Virus record (IMG/VR): IMGVR_UViG_3300023184_000456
Span: 1-26,549 of that record
Strand: one strand, 5' to 3'
DNA: 26,549 bases
Source of the DNA: a virus
In this document: positions 6,355 to 21,578 of the stretch, in pieces
How positions within the stretch are numbered: the first letter of the stretch is position 1
How the letters are laid out: every line of letters starts with the position of its first letter
Made by a program: the position numbers and the translations under genes
The notes under the pieces: generated by a model
What the model was told of the DNA's origin: nothing
What the model saw: the letters and a program-made list of their open reading frames with translations, nothing else
The model's database searches: none

Positions 6355-6372
6355 GGGAGAGAAACCTCTCCC
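6355..6372. repeat. Palindrome copy 1, GGGAGAG-AAAC-CTCTCCC
   Basis: A 7-bp perfect stem with a 4-nt loop begins 2 nt after the TAA stop of the 67-aa gene on the minus strand, and 58 nt upstream of the amidoligase start. It is one of five near-identical palindromes between 6355 and 9352. As RNA it would be a stable hairpin without a U-run, so it may be a processing, protective or protein-binding site rather than a classical terminator. Confidence 0.75.
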
Positions 6373-6374
6373 GA

Positions 6375-6578
6375 TTACTGCAAGTGATTTTCAAGGCGGT
6401 TCAAGATACACATAGCGATGTCTTGATCGTTCATCAGCAGTGCACCTTGCACTTCAATCACCAAGTCGAGCAGCATCTTGCGTTCAGCATCAGCCAGGGC
6501 GGACTGCGCGTCTTCTCTGTCGATCAGGTCTTGGTACGAGTCCATGACCGCGTAGTGGTGTGCGTCTAGTCCTTTCAT
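6375..6578 (-). CDS. Small helical hypothetical protein (67 aa)
   Basis: This 67-aa all-helical acidic protein has leucine-rich amphipathic stretches (DAQSALADAERKMLLDLVIEV, then AMCILNRLENHL). The ATG at 6578 overlaps the stop of the 92-aa gene (ATGA) and has AGGAGAG upstream. It is the last gene before palindrome copy 1 and the amidoligase. It could be a small helical adaptor, but no family is recognised. Confidence 0.65.
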   Translation of the reverse strand: MKGLDAHHYAVMDSYQDLIDREDAQSALADAERKMLLDLVIEVQGALLMNDQDIAMCILNRLENHLQ

Positions 6579-6853
6579 GTTGTCTCTCCTTGTGTTGCTT
6601 CGTTAACCAGCTTGTGTGCTAGGTTCAGCGCCATCGTGGCCACCACCATGGCGATGGCTTTCTCTGATCCGCTGAATCGCTCGCAGTACGCCATTAATTC
6701 ATCGAGTGAATCGGGCGTGGCCACAAAGTTTGTTGTTGGTATTGGGTTCTTCATTTGCTCTTCCTGTGTTAGTTGTTCTATGTCCCACGCCATGTCGGGT
6801 CTGCCATGAAACAGGCGTACCAGTTGTCCTTCTTTGATGTCATAGGTAATCAT
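6575..6853 (-). CDS. Hypothetical protein (92 aa)
   Basis: This 92-aa protein starts at ATG 6853 (ATGA overlap with the 90-aa gene, GGAAG upstream). The first 30 residues (MITYDIKEGQLVRLFHGRPD) look like a short beta segment. The C-terminal half is helical (LDELMAYCERFSGSEKAIAMVVATMALNLAHKLVNEA) and its last helix is fairly hydrophobic but contains Lys/His/Asn, so it is more likely buried than membrane-spanning. Family is unknown. It is coupled on both sides within the 7289-6375 gene group. Confidence 0.65.
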   Translation of the reverse strand: MITYDIKEGQLVRLFHGRPDMAWDIEQLTQEEQMKNPIPTTNFVATPDSLDELMAYCERFSGSEKAIAMVVATMALNLAHKLVNEATQGETT

Positions 6854-7122
6854 TGCACTTCCTCCATATGAAACTCTTCTTCAACACGAGACGACACGAC
6901 ATTTATCGAGGCGTGCTCACCAATGATTTGCTTGCCCTCAGCAAACACATAGTCCACGGGTTGTTTGCGCTCGCGCATCTCTGCGAGTACCGCATCGCAC
7001 ATAGAGTCAGACAATCCCTTGGGCATGACCAGCGCGAACCAGTCGAATGGTTCAGCGTTGTACCCGTACGGGGCAAAGGGGTTCTTGGCGTATCCGTAGA
7101 TACGCAGGACTGTTACTTTCAT
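6850..7122 (-). CDS. Hypothetical protein (90 aa)
   Basis: This 90-aa protein starts at ATG 7122 with AAAAGGAA upstream. It is aromatic-rich at the N-terminus (MKVTVLRIYGYAKNPFAPYGYNAEPFDWFALV), then has a helix (SDSMCDAVLAEMRERKQ) and strands (DYVFAEGKQIIGEHASINVV). The alternation suggests a small alpha/beta domain. No homologue is recognised. Its stop overlaps the next ATG by ATGA, and the 53-aa gene ends 5 nt upstream. Confidence 0.65.
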   Translation of the reverse strand: MKVTVLRIYGYAKNPFAPYGYNAEPFDWFALVMPKGLSDSMCDAVLAEMRERKQPVDYVFAEGKQIIGEHASINVVSSRVEEEFHMEEVQ

Positions 7123-7127
7123 TTGCT

Positions 7128-7289
7128 TTATTCCTTTTCATAACTCAGTATGTCTTCACGCAACACTTGCACAGGGTAGTGCCCGTTGACTATCTCCAGT
7201 ATCAAAGCGGTCAAATCGTGCACTTTCAATGTGTCCGACCCCATCCATGCGTAGAACTGGTCTTCAGTTACAAACTTTCTTTCAGTCAT
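7128..7289 (-). CDS. Small hypothetical protein (53 aa)
   Basis: ATG 7289 has a well-placed GGAGAAAG site and gives a 53-aa acidic protein (MTERKFVTEDQFYAWMGSD..., LILEIVNGHYPVQVLREDI). An alternative GTG at 7415 would extend it by 42 residues and would overlap the stop of the 219-aa gene as GTGA. It would, however, translate through the palindrome at 7354-7371 and has no ribosome-binding site, so the shorter form is preferred. It heads a coupled group running to 6375. Function is unknown. Confidence 0.6.
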   Translation of the reverse strand: MTERKFVTEDQFYAWMGSDTLKVHDLTALILEIVNGHYPVQVLREDILSYEKE

Positions 7290-7353
7290 TTGCTTTCTCC
7301 AACAGGCTATGGTGAAAGCTGTGCGCGGCGTAGCCCAATGCCGAGTACAGCGT

Positions 7354-7371
7354 GGGAGAGAAATCTCTCCC
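7354..7371. repeat. Palindrome copy 2, GGGAGAG-AAAT-CTCTCCC
   Basis: This is a perfect 7-bp stem with a 4-nt loop in the gap between the 219-aa and 53-aa genes, 41 nt past the stop of the former on the minus strand. It is followed (rightwards) by a tandem direct repeat TGAATGTTCC at 7373-7382 and 7384-7393. Confidence 0.75.
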
Positions 7372-7411
7372 GTGAATGTTCCATGAATGTTCCCCCTGAC
7401 ACCCGTCAAGG

Positions 7412-8071
7412 TCACAGCCCATGCCAGGTCGTGGGCACAGGTTCGCCCTGGGACAGATGCTTGATGATGTCAAGCGCTTGACTGATTTTCGCTACGCGGT
7501 CTTTGTCCCCCTCGGACTGCGCCCGCCCCAGGTCTTTGAGGGTGCGCCTGAGTAAGCGGTCTTTTTGCTTGCCGTGCAGGATTACTGGCACTGTCCGCTC
7601 GAATGGGCGCTTGCGCTTTGCCCGTACCACGGGCGGTATGGCATCAAATAGCGTGACTACCCTCTCGCGGATGTGCGCTGGTACATGGTCGCACCAGTGT
7701 GTGCGCTCTGGGTACAGTTGCATGGGTGTCTCAGATTTTTCCCGCTTCAACAACTCTAGCCTGCCGCGCAGTGTGTCGAGCACCTGGATGTAGGCTTGCA
7801 GTGCAAGCGTGCGAGCATCCCCAGATTTTGCCGATTTGTAGCCCAGCATGGAGCGCACGACCTTGCGCTCGTGGATGAGTGGTGCGAGGAATTCACCCCA
7901 GGTGTGGTCAAGCTGGCGCTTGTGTGCACGCTTGACCTTGAGATTTTTCCGCATTTCGCGCACTTGTGCTTTTATCCGCTCGATTGTTTCGGGCGAGTCG
8001 TGCCGTCTGCTTAGTGCGTTGTGCAGGTCGCGCTCGCCCATGTGGGCGTAGCTTGATAGTCCTTTTGGCAT
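7412..8071 (-). CDS. Strongly basic hypothetical protein (219 aa)
   Basis: ATG 8071 is chosen because it has AAAGGA at good spacing; a longer frame to 8140 has no such signal. The protein is very rich in Arg/Lys/His throughout (AQVREMRKNLKVKRAHKRQLD, RAKRKRPFERTVPVILHGKQK, KDRLLRRTLKDLGRAQ) and mostly helical, which suggests nucleic-acid binding or a structural scaffold. No catalytic motif or known domain is seen. It is the first gene after the two leftward promoters in the 8072-8436 control region, so it could be among the earliest expressed products. Function is unknown. Confidence 0.7.
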   Translation of the reverse strand: MPKGLSSYAHMGERDLHNALSRRHDSPETIERIKAQVREMRKNLKVKRAHKRQLDHTWGEFLAPLIHERKVVRSMLGYKSAKSGDARTLALQAYIQVLDTLRGRLELLKREKSETPMQLYPERTHWCDHVPAHIRERVVTLFDAIPPVVRAKRKRPFERTVPVILHGKQKDRLLRRTLKDLGRAQSEGDKDRVAKISQALDIIKHLSQGEPVPTTWHGL

Positions 8072-8147
8072 GATGTGTCCTTTTTCGGTCTGTAAGTATC
8101 CGTGATTAGAGCAACTTTCCCCCCGCGTGGACAGTTGCAAGTGCTTG

Positions 8148-8177
8148 ATTGTACTGCGTTAGTCGAGCTACTGTCCA
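8148..8177 (-). promoter_or_regulatory. Predicted leftward promoter, TGGACA-N18-TACAAT
   Basis: On the minus strand TGGACA (8177-8172) and TACAAT (8153-8148) are separated by 18 nt, each matching 5 of 6 consensus bases. The 9-bp inverted repeat arms at 8127-8135 and 8170-8178 bracket it, so the -35 overlaps one arm. A dimer or looped repressor could control it. It would drive the 219-aa gene. Confidence 0.5.
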
Positions 8178-8198
8178 CACTATACATCTGTTTGGGAA

Positions 8199-8227
8199 GT
8201 GATACACAGCCTTTGACAGATTGTCAA
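8199..8227 (-). promoter_or_regulatory. Predicted leftward promoter overlapping an inverted repeat
   Basis: On the minus strand TTGACA (8227-8222) is followed after 17 nt by TATCAC (8204-8199). The -35 is one arm of TTGACA-GAT-TGTCAA (8213-8227), an operator-like symmetric site. The -35 is perfect and the -10 is weak (4 of 6). Confidence 0.45.
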
Positions 8228-8296
8228 GCGCGGTCAAAACAGCGGGAGTTAGCAAGATGATAAACCCGGCAATTCTGAACGCGCACGAGTACACAT

Positions 8297-8336
8297 CTCT
8301 ATATCTATATCTATATAAATATAGATAGATAGATAG
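8297..8336. repeat. AT-rich TATC/GATA palindromic tract
   Basis: A tandem run of CTATAT/TATC units on the left reads into GATAGATA units on the right. The two halves are largely complementary and can fold into an AT-rich cruciform or hairpin with little GC content. Such tracts are easily melted, as in DNA-unwinding elements, and are also prone to slippage. Confidence 0.7.
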
Positions 8337-8436
8337 GACAGTGTGTGTCCGTGCCGCATACGAATCAACCACTTACGCTTGTCCAAGCGGGGGGAAAGTG
8401 TATCTAATCTGGGATACCTATTTTTGTGCCTATTTT

Positions 8437-8652
8437 TTAGGCAGTTTGTGCACCGAGTTGGTGCGGAATGGGTATTCCGATGGATTCGAGGTAGCTGGCG
8501 CAGACTTCTGCGCTTGTGTGAAGGCGTGCTTCACGCCCCACGCAAGTCTCCCACATCTGCACTTCGCGCCAGCGTTTGCCGCCCCTCTCAAGGCAGGGGA
8601 TGTAGGACTTGATGACCACTCCATTGATGGTCAGGTTGGTGTGCTTTTTCAT
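8437..8652 (-). CDS. Hypothetical protein (71 aa)
   Basis: The start at ATG 8652 has the GGAGAAGCACC leader typical of this phage. A longer frame to 8811 would have to run through two hairpins and lacks a ribosome-binding site. The 71-aa product has a beta-like N-terminus (HTNLTINGVVIKSYIPCLE), a basic middle (RGGKRWREVQMWETCVG) and a helix (SAEVCASYLESIG). Three cysteines are present but unpaired in any known motif. Palindrome copy 3 lies 18 nt upstream of the start. Family is unknown. Confidence 0.65.
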   Translation of the reverse strand: MKKHTNLTINGVVIKSYIPCLERGGKRWREVQMWETCVGREARLHTSAEVCASYLESIGIPIPHQLGAQTA

Positions 8653-8669
8653 GGTGCTTCTCCAATTGC

Positions 8670-8687
8670 GGGAGAGGTTTCTCTCCC
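8670..8687. repeat. Palindrome copy 3, GGGAGAG-GTTT-CTCTCCC
   Basis: Same stem as copies 1 and 2 but with the loop in the opposite orientation (minus strand reads AAAC). It lies between the hairpin at 8716-8739 and the ribosome-binding site of the 71-aa gene, so in RNA it would form part of that gene's leader. Confidence 0.75.
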
Positions 8688-8715
8688 AGGGTTCTGCAAG
8701 GCGCAGGGTTGCCCA

Positions 8716-8739
8716 GCAAGCACAGCACGCTGTGCTTGC
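8716..8739. repeat. 11-bp perfect inverted repeat with 2-nt centre
   Basis: The arms GCAAGCACAGC (8716-8726) and GCTGTGCTTGC (8729-8739) are perfectly complementary around AC. On the minus strand this lies 9 nt past the stop of the 37-aa gene. There is no U-run, so it is a poor classical terminator. It could be a dimeric protein site, a processing site or a roadblock. Confidence 0.7.
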
Positions 8740-8747
8740 GGAAGTTC

Positions 8748-8861
8748 CTATCGCAGACGATACATACGGCGCACGAAGCGCAGGCGGCGCAAGCCGTTTT
8801 CGGTTGACCACACAGGGATTGCGCGGGTGCTCAAGGTGCGGTTGGTGTGGCGTTGTTTCAT
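8748..8861 (-). CDS. Arg-rich mini-protein (37 aa)
   Basis: The 37-codon frame starts at ATG 8861, overlapping the stop of the 35-aa gene by ATGA, with GGAG 8 nt upstream. The product is highly basic: MKQRHTNRTLSTRAIPVWS, then NGLRRLRFVRRMYRLR. Such Arg-rich peptides may bind nucleic acid. No homologue is recognised, and reality rests on the overlap and ribosome-binding site. Confidence 0.5.
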   Translation of the reverse strand: MKQRHTNRTLSTRAIPVWSTENGLRRLRFVRRMYRLR

Positions 8862-8965
8862 GACATCCGCTCCACTAGATAGCCTTCTTCCTTGTAAACC
8901 AAGGCTTCCATGACGGGGACATTCTCAATCCAGCGGGCTTGCTGGGGTAGGTAAACACGATACAT
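8858..8965 (-). CDS. Mini-protein (35 aa)
   Basis: ATG 8965 has GGAGA 8 nt upstream and gives a 35-aa product (MYRVYLPQQARWIENVPVME...). Longer in-frame starts upstream (9079) would cover the terminator-like hairpin at 9054-9076 and lack a ribosome-binding site. It couples to the 37-aa gene by ATGA. No function can be assigned. Confidence 0.5.
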   Translation of the reverse strand: MYRVYLPQQARWIENVPVMEALVYKEEGYLVERMS

Positions 8966-9044
8966 GATGATTCTCCAGATAGCGGACAGGATCGTCCCCA
9001 CAGAGCACCCTTGTGGGATGCGCTGTAAGAATTCCCGTTGGACA

Positions 9045-9076
9045 GGAAAAGAAACAGCGGCATGGATAGCCGCTGT
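9045..9076 (-). terminator. Rho-independent-like terminator, leftward
   Basis: An 8-bp perfect stem (ACAGCGGC 9054-9061, GCCGCTGT 9069-9076) with a 7-nt loop is followed on the minus strand by TTCTTTTCC. It lies about 27 nt past the stop of the 147-aa gene, beyond palindrome copy 4, and probably ends that transcript at least partly. Confidence 0.6.
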
Positions 9077-9081
9077 CACTC

Positions 9082-9099
9082 GGGAGAGAAATCTCTCCG
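9082..9099. repeat. Palindrome copy 4, GGGAGAG-AAAT-CTCTCCG
   Basis: This copy has six of seven stem pairs. It starts 3 nt after the TAA stop of the 147-aa gene on the minus strand, the same placement as copy 1 after its gene; both contexts begin TAATC. It is followed by the terminator-like hairpin. Confidence 0.7.
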
Positions 9100-9102
9100 G
9101 GA

Positions 9103-9546
9103 TTACTCGAAGGTGATCTGAGCCAAGGCGCGATCGACCAAGGCGTTGATCTGCTCACGGGTCAGACCCTTGAACAGCTCGACTGCCTGCTCAACCTTGA
9201 CCTTGGGCACAGCCACACGAGCGTGGCTCTTGGTAGGTACATCCTCGGTGATGGGGCGAATGATGTGATAGCGGAACTTCGAGTAGCCCTTGTAGTAGGC
9301 ATCCTGTGCATCCTTGGTTCGCTCGTCCCGAGTCTGGGAGAGAATTCTCTCCGCCGCTTTCGCTTTGCACTCTGTGTAACCCATGATGAACTGCACAAGG
9401 CAGTCGTGCATCAGTTGCTCTTGTTGCTCAGGCGTGGACTTGGTGTAGTCCTTGTGAGCCTGTGTAGTTGCTTTCCGTGTCAGGCGTTCTGCTTGACCCA
9501 GCGCAAAGAACAAGGCAGTGGTTGTGATTGCTTTCGATTGGTTCAT
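9103..9546 (-). CDS. Helical hypothetical protein (147 aa)
   Basis: The start at ATG 9546 has GGAGAAG at ideal spacing. The 147-aa product is Lys/Glu/Gln-rich and helical (AERLTRKATTQAHKDYTKSTPEQQEQ..., FIMGYTECKAKAAERILSQ). A mid segment has Tyr-rich character (DAYYKGYSKFRYHIIRPITEDV), and the C-terminal helix is LTREQINALVDRALAQITFE. No known domain is seen. It is the rightmost leftward gene, abutting the switch region, so it may be expressed first. Palindrome copy 5 lies inside it, encoding ERILS. Confidence 0.75.
   Translation of the reverse strand: MNQSKAITTTALFFALGQAERLTRKATTQAHKDYTKSTPEQQEQLMHDCLVQFIMGYTECKAKAAERILSQTRDERTKDAQDAYYKGYSKFRYHIIRPITEDVPTKSHARVAVPKVKVEQAVELFKGLTREQINALVDRALAQITFE
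9336..9352. repeat. Palindrome copy 5, GGGAGAGAATTCTCTCC, inside a gene
   Basis: GGAGAGAATTCTCTCC (9337-9352) is a perfect 16-bp palindrome inside the 147-aa coding sequence. It matches the intergenic copies over GGGAGAGAA and CTCTCC. The in-gene position argues for a DNA-level or RNA-level signal that is tolerated by coding, or for chance. Confidence 0.6.
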
Positions 9547-9787
9547 GTTACTTCTCCAGTTAGTTTAAGGATGCCCTCGGGGTTTCCCCCTTGGACACTT
9601 CCAGTATCACATGACGGGGTTTTAAACATGGTCTAGAACCCCATCCCTGAACCCCACCATACCCCCACCAACCCATATATAAACCAGACATACCAGCCAG
9701 CCAGAACACTGTTTCACAACCATAAATCAATCTTTTGTAATACTTAACCACTACCCCCATAAATTTTTTAAAAAATTCTATAAAACC

Positions 9788-18263: not shown

Positions 18264-18293
18264 AAAAGGGGGCTTCGGCCCCCTTTTCTTTTT
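18264..18293 (+). terminator. Rho-independent terminator after the capsid gene
   Basis: GGGGGC-TTCG-GCCCCC (18268-18283), extended by AAAA/TTTT, is followed by CTTTTT. It has a stable UUCG tetraloop and a U-rich tail. It has the same 16-nt core as the terminator at 19527-19549. Confidence 0.92.
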
Positions 18294-18330: not shown

Positions 18331-18921
18331 ATGGAGTACCCAAAAACAAGAGCGGAAGCCAAAGCCGCAGGCGCTAAGTACTATTTCACTGGGCAACCGT
18401 GCAAACACGGCCATGTTGCTTTACGAAAAACCAAAGGCGCGTGTATTGAATGTTTGAAAGCGGAATGGGAAAAAGGCAATGAGACTCGTGCGGAATATTT
18501 TTGTGAGTACAACCGATCTGACGCAGGGATAGAAGCCAAACAGGAGTACTACAAACGAAATCGAGGGGCCGTAATTGCTCGCGCACAGGCAAGACCTTCA
18601 GAAGAAAAAAGGGCGTATAGGGCTGCGTGGAAAGCAAACAACGCCGATCAAGTTTTGGCGGACAACAAAGTTCGCCGCCGTAAGCACCGCCAAGCCACTC
18701 CGCCTTGGATCACTCGAAAACAAAAATCGGAAATTCGGCAGCTCTATCAAATTGCCATAACCATGTCTAGAACCACTGGTGAGCGCTATGTGGTAGATCA
18801 CATCGTCCCGTTAAGGTCTGATTTTGTGTGTGGGCTGCATGTGCCTTGGAACCTGCGGGTAATCACCCAAGAGGAGAATTTGAAGAAGTCAAACAAGCTG
18901 CTTGACACGCCCCAAGAATAG
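18331..18921 (+). CDS. HNH endonuclease, free-standing homing type
   Basis: This 196-aa nuclease has a metal-dependent C-terminal HNH domain: VDHIVPLRSD (155-164, catalytic His157), then CGLHVPWNLRVIT (167-179, Asn174) and ENLKKSNK (182-189, Asn183). The N-terminal part has C24-KHGH-C38-x2-C41, a probable zinc-binding region. The middle is basic and helical and may hold the DNA. It lies between the capsid gene and another structural gene, flanked by terminator and promoter. This is typical of a free-standing selfish endonuclease inserted in a late operon. No intron or split gene is visible around it. Base use looks somewhat less biased than the capsid gene. Confidence 0.88.
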   Translation: MEYPKTRAEAKAAGAKYYFTGQPCKHGHVALRKTKGACIECLKAEWEKGNETRAEYFCEYNRSDAGIEAKQEYYKRNRGAVIARAQARPSEEKRAYRAAWKANNADQVLADNKVRRRKHRQATPPWITRKQKSEIRQLYQIAITMSRTTGERYVVDHIVPLRSDFVCGLHVPWNLRVITQEENLKKSNKLLDTPQE

Positions 18922-18929: not shown

Positions 18930-18935
18930 GCAACC

Positions 18936-18993
18936 ATTCCGGGAAACCCGGTGTATCAAACAGTCCCGGCTGACTGTCATGCAAGATTGATAC
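18936..18993 (+). promoter_or_regulatory. Structured 5' leader
   Basis: Downstream of the promoter are CCGGG-AAA-CCCGG (18939-18951) and a composite hairpin. The composite hairpin has an outer stem GTATCAA/TTGATAC (18953-18959 with 18987-18993) and an inner stem ACAGTC/GACTGT (18960-18965 with 18972-18977), with a bulge at 18978-18986. It could stabilise the mRNA or control translation of the gene at 19018. Confidence 0.5.
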
Positions 18994-19017
18994 GCCTTAA
19001 CGCATGGAGAAATTCTC

Positions 19018-19518
19018 ATGGGATTCGCAACTCACCTTGGCCCCTGGTTGTTGGGCACTGTTAAAAACACCACTGGCACCACTGCTGGCACCATTCGCAA
19101 TATGGGCGCTACGATTGTTTCTCAGTCGTACACCGCAGCCACAGCCACTATTTTGGCGTCCCCCACCGCAGTACAGATGTTCACTCTGCCTGCTGGCGCA
19201 CAAATCATGCGTTTTGACATTTATGTGATTACTGCTTTAACTGGTGCCACTAACTGCGGCGTAGTTATTGGAACGAGCGGCACATCCAACTTCTACATGA
19301 CTTCTGTTAACAGTGGAACTTCTGCTGTTCAAGTCTCTCCTGCAACGATTGCTGCTGCAACACAAGCGGCTAAAACCAACAACGTAGGAACCACTGACGC
19401 AATCATCTACGGCACGTTTACAGCGGCTACGGCTGATGCAACTGCTGGTTCAGTAGTTGTGTCGGTCACATACACTGTCCGTGATTCTGACGGTTCTGCT
19501 AACCCCAGCCAAGGTTAA
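19018..19518 (+). CDS. Putative virion structural protein (166 aa)
   Basis: This 166-aa, Thr/Ala/Ser/Val-rich beta protein begins MGFATHLGPWLLGTVKN and contains FTLPAGAQIMRFDIYVITALTGATNCGVVIG. Together with its own strong promoter and terminator, this composition suggests an abundant capsid-surface or decoration protein. GGAGAA precedes ATG 19018. It forms a monocistronic unit (promoter 18902, terminator 19527). No enzyme motif is present. The call is by composition and context. Confidence 0.7.
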   Translation: MGFATHLGPWLLGTVKNTTGTTAGTIRNMGATIVSQSYTAATATILASPTAVQMFTLPAGAQIMRFDIYVITALTGATNCGVVIGTSGTSNFYMTSVNSGTSAVQVSPATIAAATQAAKTNNVGTTDAIIYGTFTAATADATAGSVVVSVTYTVRDSDGSANPSQG

Positions 19519-19526
19519 TTGATCTA

Positions 19527-19549
19527 GGGGGCTTCGGCCCCCGCTTTTT
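19527..19549 (+). terminator. Rho-independent terminator after the 166-aa structural gene
   Basis: GGGGGC-TTCG-GCCCCC (19527-19542) is followed by GCTTTTTA, with an identical 16-nt core to the terminator at 18268-18283. Confidence 0.9.
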
Positions 19550-21348: not shown

Positions 21349-21578
21349 AACCGCCGCAGACTTCTCTCAGAGCTTGGGGTGACCAGAAATGGCGCACCAA
21401 GTCGGGGAAGCCTTCGTCAAAGACGGGGGAGCGGTATCTTCCAGAAGCGGCAATCAAAGCGCTCAGTCCTTCTGAGTACGCGGCTACCACCAAAGCCAAA
21501 CGGGCGGGTAAGGCGGCAGGTAAACAGTTTGTGGCGCAACCCAAGAGCATTGCGAAAAAAACAGCGGGGTTTAGATAA
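21345..21578 (+). CDS. DUF5872-like small basic protein (77 aa)
   Basis: The frame starts at TTG 21345, overlapping the previous stop, and its TAA overlaps the next ATG (TAATG). The 77-aa product has SLRAWGDQKWRTKSGKPSSK and TGERYLPEAAIKALSPSEYA, with KAKRAGKAAGKQFVAQP and a final IAKKTAGFR. The KWRTKSGKPS...RYLP...AIKALS pattern matches my recollection of DUF5872 and of small proteins in cyanophages and related phages. It is very basic, with no known activity. Confidence 0.75.
   Translation: MKPPQTSLRAWGDQKWRTKSGKPSSKTGERYLPEAAIKALSPSEYAATTKAKRAGKAAGKQFVAQPKSIAKKTAGFR

Follow-up and report, generated by a model that had tools for sequence, protein, structure and literature searches.

The locus considered here raises the question of what a set of dispersed palindromes does in a phage genome, and which protein reads them. 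The analysed stretch, referred to as the window, is the entire IMG/VR record IMGVR_UViG_3300023184_000456, a phage fragment of 26,549 bases, and five copies of the palindrome GGGAGAG-N4-CTCTCCC lie in its block of leftward genes. Comparison with relatives points to the first gene of this block, which encodes a protein of 147 amino acid residues (p147). We read p147, with a probability of about two in three, as an autoregulated palindrome-binding repressor at dispersed, stoperator-like sites. At the level of sequence, this reading is supported by the way in which the sequence and spacing of the site vary together with the p147 N-terminus, by a signature of double-stranded DNA in the variation of the sites, and by their positions.

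Palindromes in the leftward gene block of the window

The five copies are located as follows.

6355–6372: palindrome copy 1, GGGAGAG-AAAC-CTCTCCC, perfect; 2 nt past the stop of the gene at 6375–6578 (minus strand) and 58 nt before the amidoligase-like gene
7354–7371: palindrome copy 2, perfect, with the centre AAAT; intergenic, 40 nt past the stop of the gene for a 219-aa protein
8670–8687: palindrome copy 3, perfect; between leftward genes, 17 nt upstream of the gene at 8437–8652 (minus strand)
9082–9099: palindrome copy 4, one mismatch in the outermost pair; 3 nt past the p147 stop
9336–9353: palindrome copy 5, one mismatch in the outermost pair, with the centre AATT; within the p147 gene

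These are the places given in a preliminary description of this DNA, except that copy 5 ends at 9353 and not at 9352, and its account of copies 1 and 4 behind stop codons, copies 2 and 3 between genes and copy 5 inside a gene was confirmed. When up to three mismatches were allowed, six matches were found in the window against 0.9 ± 0.93 expected, and no shuffled sequence reached six. The sole further match was at 21425. The five copies are confined to the leftward block, as proposed, and are far above chance. When repeated palindromes were sought de novo, the GGGAGAG-N4-CTCTCCC family ranked first in the window, and a block-shuffled copy of the window gave no family. Copies 1 and 3 are exact reverse complements of each other; therefore, a fixed orientation is not required. 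As had been proposed, the palindromes are not ordinary terminators: T-runs are absent, and a terminator scan returned no site as a whole-stem terminator.

Palindrome families of related phages

The nearest named phages by the window terminase are the HTVC023P-type phages and 023Pt_psg01 (about 50%), and the same protein is 97–98% identical to that of metagenomic viral contigs. Searches with the amidoligase-like protein and the terminase yielded 158 loci, to which 15 near-complete or long records were added; palindromes and genes were compared in 117 related freshwater-phage loci. Nearly all of these 117 loci have 3–8 palindrome copies in the corresponding leftward block. The strongest palindrome family across the whole record had 5–8 copies in all 15 near-complete or long relatives, a size that no family reached in shuffles; its members are located in the leftward block, no further than about 9 kb to the left of terL. 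Single outlying members occur in a few records, and some of these are circular-order or chance effects.

The stem differs between lineages: GGGAGAG-N3 or N4, GAGAGAG, GGGGAAC, GGGGAGA, GGGGAAA, GGGGACA, GGGGTAG, GGGGGTC, GCAGACA, GTGGACA, TGGGACA, TGGAACA, CGGGTCAC, GATTCAG and GTTGCAC were found. Copies are alike within one genome and unlike between genomes, and only the site of 16–20 bp is common to them, not its flanks. Conservation of the stems in relatives, on which the preliminary description had staked the motif, was therefore found only in part: the sequence varies by lineage, whereas the palindromic form, the number of copies and their position are kept, and the stem co-varies with p147. 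Of the options raised there, a phage-specific repeat family and protein-binding operators are supported. A comparable palindrome family was found neither in the first 50 kb of the marine relatives HTVC023P and 023Pt_psg01 nor in DSL-LC04, blastn of the block against named phages gave no match, and the literature searched contained no description of the repeat, the papers on HTVC023P-type phages making no mention of it.

The gene that tracks the palindrome

Two genes of the block were the candidates for encoding the protein that reads the site.

9103–9546, minus strand: p147, first leftward gene, 147 aa; predicted palindrome-binding regulator, tracking the palindrome across relatives
7412–8071, minus strand: p219, a helical protein of 219 aa; linked gene, rejected as the cognate binder

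An open reading frame was present at the p147 position, rightmost in the block, in 115 of the 117 loci; in most loci its stop is followed by a site 2–11 nt on, and in many a site also lies in the leader. Protein similarity was used to separate pairs of loci with the same palindrome from pairs with different palindromes, the L150 locus being excluded because its gene had been mis-picked. The area under the curve (AUC) was 0.91–0.98 for p147, 0.74–0.86 for p219 and 0.56–0.74 for terL. Within p147, the N-terminal part gave 0.90–0.97 and the C-terminal 45 residues 0.77–0.83. A bootstrap over loci gave 0.94 for p147, against 0.75 for p219 and 0.76 for the gene at the terS position, and the N-terminal part of p147 stood above both of the others in 500 of 500 resamples.

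The two candidates were separated by discordant pairs. L131 and L009 share a site, with p147 91% and p219 42% identical, and the same holds for L235 and L255 (74% and 33%). Conversely, L131/L133, L246/L260 and L180/L198 differ in their sites and their p147 proteins have no detectable match, although p219 is 82–93% identical (93% in L180/L198). Because the gene at the p147 position sides with the palindrome wherever p219 and the palindrome disagree, p147 is preferred. The proximity of p219 to the sites in every relative genome, its long basic helices, and its divergence, far above that of its neighbours in most close pairs with differing palindromes, would suit a binder; with a lower AUC in every resample and a correlation explicable by linkage to p147, it is nevertheless a quite improbable one. 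It had been favoured at first from a comparison of near relatives, in which p219 was 84–89% identical to same-class genomes and 59–60% to TGGRACA genomes, most neighbouring genes being at 78–97%, and it was dropped on the discordant pairs. Specificity columns sought in p219 gave no consistent code. Spearman correlations over the whole set were weak for every gene, since distant pairs dominate. The best candidate is the 147-aa gene, and not the 219-aa or winged-helix protein that the preliminary description had put forward for binding tests.

Three further comparisons could each have failed. A search with the window p147 alone found L337, in which terL is 78%, p219 only 48% and the p147 N-terminus 84% identical to those of the window; this locus has five GGGAGAG-N4 sites, that is, the site of the window including its 4-bp spacer. 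In L340, L342, L345 and L346, which are nearest by every other gene (terL about 97%), the p147 N-termini are 37–40% and the C-termini 80–90% identical, and the sites are GGGAGAG-N3. In the reverse direction, 120 contigs were fetched by the DNA pattern alone: a p147 homologue was encoded by all three with two or more good copies (L009, L108 and L115) and by none of the 117 with a single copy. Finally, the p147 of G015/L127 is a chimera with a window-like C-terminus and an L134/L260-like N-terminus, and its palindrome is of the GAGAGAG kind found in L134/L260.

These comparisons also bear on a mobile or recombination repeat family (REP- or MITE-like, or exchange sites) homogenised by gene conversion without a cognate protein. 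Copies that are alike within and unlike between genomes, and that lie at gene borders, where modules exchange, would agree with it; however, such a family does not predict that the N-terminus of one gene tracks sequence and spacer length, as in L337 and the DNA-only search, and it is at odds with copies that share the site and not the flanks. It is the least probable of the explanations considered.

Double-stranded DNA site or RNA hairpin

The preliminary description had seen selection on pairing in the kept stems. Many sites stand right behind stop codons or in the 5′ leaders of leftward transcripts, which would suit RNA hairpins acting in mRNA 3′-end protection, in processing or as sites of an RNA-binding protein. 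Mismatches were tallied in the six-pair core of about 430 distinct sites, read on the transcript strand, and G-U mismatches were not in excess (8, against 13–14 of A-C). The pair flanking GGGG..CCCC was most often C..A (100 of 232), which cannot pair, and the association between the flanking bases ran opposite to pairing (p = 0.001, a value that is indicative only, the sites of related phages being non-independent). Half-sites vary independently, and the central bases are free to vary. A contrast is given by the p147 leaders of these operons, whose RNA hairpin has G-C to G-U and compensatory changes. The absence of a G-U bias and the independence of the half-sites therefore point to double-stranded DNA and not to RNA hairpins, and the pattern of variation is that which would be expected for a dimer on double-stranded DNA. 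Moreover, the centres appear in both orientations, neither pairing kept through G-U intermediates nor the T-run of intrinsic terminators was found, and a single uniform stem per genome is not needed by a generic hairpin. RNA hairpins are thus a very unlikely explanation, and of the earlier interpretation the operator and repeat-family options stand, whereas the RNA-hairpin option and the selection on pairing do not.

Architecture of p147 and p219

Three parts of p147 were distinguished.

9247–9546, minus strand: N-terminal region of about 100 residues; candidate specificity domain by AUC and class-specific residues
9259–9315, minus strand: helix 78–96, last N-terminal helix; candidate recognition helix
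9106–9246, minus strand: C-terminal module; exchangeable

The AlphaFold2 model of p147 (pLDDT 86) is helical, with helices at residues 9–26, 28–36, 39–58, 62–70 and 78–96 and, after a linker, at 115–124 and 130–143. When aligned p147 classes were read by eye, changes of residue in the last N-terminal helix went together with changes in the inner bases of the half-site. GGGGAAC goes with RTASxEKAVNTG, GGGGAGA mostly with RTxxEExxVNAG, GGGGAAA with YENAKRDLYD, and the GGGGACA of L149, L154 and L184 with YExAKRAxTR; this switching would fit a recognition helix. Several different C-terminal modules of 45 residues are swapped among p147 proteins while the palindrome is unchanged, which may be taken as evidence of domain shuffling in a protein of 150 aa, and the module probably serves oligomerisation or dimerisation. 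No Pfam, PHROG or PDB family was matched by p147. Helix-turn-helix repressors (PurR and LacI headpieces, MarR-family proteins) are among its top Foldseek matches, which are weak and not significant, and Z scores were at most 4.1 according to VIA. A tblastn search of named phages with three p147 types and p219 gave no match.

The p219 model (pLDDT 91) has long helices. Fold searches gave no significant PDB match for it and one viral match in BFVD, to an uncharacterised phage protein. Some p219 members have weak PHROG matches to HNH endonucleases, which fall on a lysine- and arginine-rich helix.

Promoter, leader and layout of the sites

9603–9611, minus strand: candidate extended -10 box TGTGATACT, promoter of p147 and the leftward operon; -10-like boxes are conserved at the corresponding place in relatives

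In many relatives, one site lies in the p147 leader, downstream of the -10-like box, and the remaining sites lie at gene boundaries of the operon. By a crude gene call, 359 of 457 sites fall in gaps of a block that is about 71% coding. This layout suits blocking of elongation together with autoregulation more than classical promoter occlusion.

Directly downstream of the -10-like box, the p147 leader of relatives (e.g., L153, L161 and L134) also contains a conserved hairpin of RNA type in which both G-U and compensatory changes occur.

Comparison with known systems

In Cluster A mycobacteriophages (L5, Bxb1), many short repressor sites are distributed genome-wide, also in short intergenic spaces; these stoperators lack symmetry, measure 13 bp and are each bound by a monomer in one orientation, and a genome of these temperate phages has more than twenty of them (PMC6550527, PMC9283540). 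In the present group the sites are likewise dispersed, most of them in short gaps between genes; the motif of the site and the predicted regulator diverge together, and a site lies at the regulator gene. Unlike stoperators, they are palindromes of 15–20 bp in either orientation (copy 3 being copy 1 reversed) with 5–8 per genome, and p147 is not homologous to the Cluster A repressor by sequence (Pfam, PHROG, PDB), a remote fold relation being possible. In the Bacillus prophage SPbeta, the 15-bp element SPBRE occurs at several intergenic regions and is read by one phage-encoded master repressor, MrpR, which has a tyrosine-recombinase fold and sites in prophage promoter regions (PMC10516654). A repeated element in several intergenic regions and one phage-encoded protein, here p147 with predicted binding, are found in both cases; unlike MrpR, p147 is small and helical and has its sites at gene ends and leaders. 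By analogy (comparator in part from PMC9283540), p147 would resemble lambda cI/Cro as a dimer on a palindrome with N-terminal reading, C-terminal oligomerisation and autoregulation, but its sites extend over kilobases and are not grouped over one or two promoters, and neither homology nor a significant fold match was found. Cluster A stoperators and SPBRE/MrpR are the closest working analogues; p147 is not counted as a member of either system because site symmetry and protein family differ.

Since the window is a fragment, integrases and ParA were searched for in relatives. Neither a tyrosine integrase (PF00589; serine integrases were not searched) nor a ParA-type ATPase (PF13614) was found in 13 relatives, and the control profile was matched in 14 genomes. 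The latter result bears on a role of p147 and its sites in partition (as a centromere), replication or DNA organisation in place of repression. In N15-type ParABS systems, a few dispersed palindromes in the phage genome serve as centromeres for one binding protein, and dispersed palindromes with an adjacent gene for a binding protein would fit this as well, as would the AT-rich tract within a 58-nt inverted repeat at 8093–8420. The missing ParA-type ATPase and the closeness of the sites to gene ends and the p147 leader, which suits transcription control, make this role unlikely.

Proposed mode of action

As a repressor, a p147 dimer would bind the palindromes as double-stranded DNA sites, its N-terminal helical domain reading the half-site and fixing the half-site spacing, and its short C-terminal module providing dimerisation or oligomerisation. 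With sites at gene boundaries beyond the p147 promoter, and also next to or within the p147 gene, bound p147 would stop elongating RNA polymerase and so repress its own operon; it could also silence the matching operon when a phage of the same site type enters the cell. That p147 binds physically and as a dimer, represses as a roadblock and gives superinfection immunity is what we infer. Different p147 N-termini with matching palindromes by lineage are as expected of immunity-type specificity under diversifying selection. Because no integrase or ParA was matched in the 13 relatives, tuning of the lytic programme or exclusion of related phages is favoured over lysogeny as the role that we infer.

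Several observations weigh against a p147 repressor. The same search result makes a lysogenic role for a repressor not obvious, and no recognised DNA-binding fold was found for p147 (best Foldseek E 2.7). The lineage of the window lacks the leader site and has a site inside p147 instead, and 98 of the 457 sites lie within genes by the crude gene call. The GGGGACA half-site occurs with N-termini of no detectable homology (G003/L138, L154 and L198); therefore, the code is not one-to-one. In addition, clade structure was handled through identity bands and the bootstrap only.

Site layout in a cultured cyanophage

The cultured Planktothrix phage Pag-Yong1 (L350, OL906435) has 27 copies of GGTTCAG-N-CTGAACC between 361 and 41983, of which 21 are intergenic or overlap gene ends in a stretch that is 91% coding. 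Its first leftward gene (18933–19496; product UMO76074.1) has a site on either side, one within its leader and the other past its stop; a search of this phage for a homologue of p147 by sequence gave none. From this site layout, the design may be wider and testable in culture. It is tentatively suggested, at somewhat less than even odds, that p147 is the first member of a new, modular family of DNA-binding proteins in phages, with about a dozen N-terminal palindrome specificities in one phage group, whose transcription roadblocks provide immunity-type kin recognition among uncultivated freshwater phages without a detected integrase, the cultured cyanophage having the same site layout.

Other features of the window

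At 8093–8420, upstream of the 219-aa gene, a 58-nt inverted repeat (79% complementary) surrounds the AT-rich TATCTATA tract; close relatives have the AT-rich palindrome as well, and the region could be an origin or a regulatory region. Two near-identical GGGGGCTTCGGCCCCC hairpins (18267–18290 and 19526–19549), each followed by T-rich DNA, lie between structural genes and are probably ordinary terminators. A gene resembling HNH/endonuclease VII by eye (18331–18921) follows the gene at the capsid position.

Significance

The site and protein pair looks like a rapidly diversifying gene switch, and the system may let phages distinguish kin from rivals. If the reading of p147 is true, it would represent an undescribed family of DNA-binding proteins in which the N-termini and palindromes of one phage group form a natural series of specificities that can be read, and the joint evolution of a phage regulator with many dispersed sites would be directly testable. 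The variable p147 domains are candidate orthogonal repressors for laboratory use. Immunity-like specificity would then be possible in phages without a detected integrase, and it would shape co-infection and recombination in lakes.

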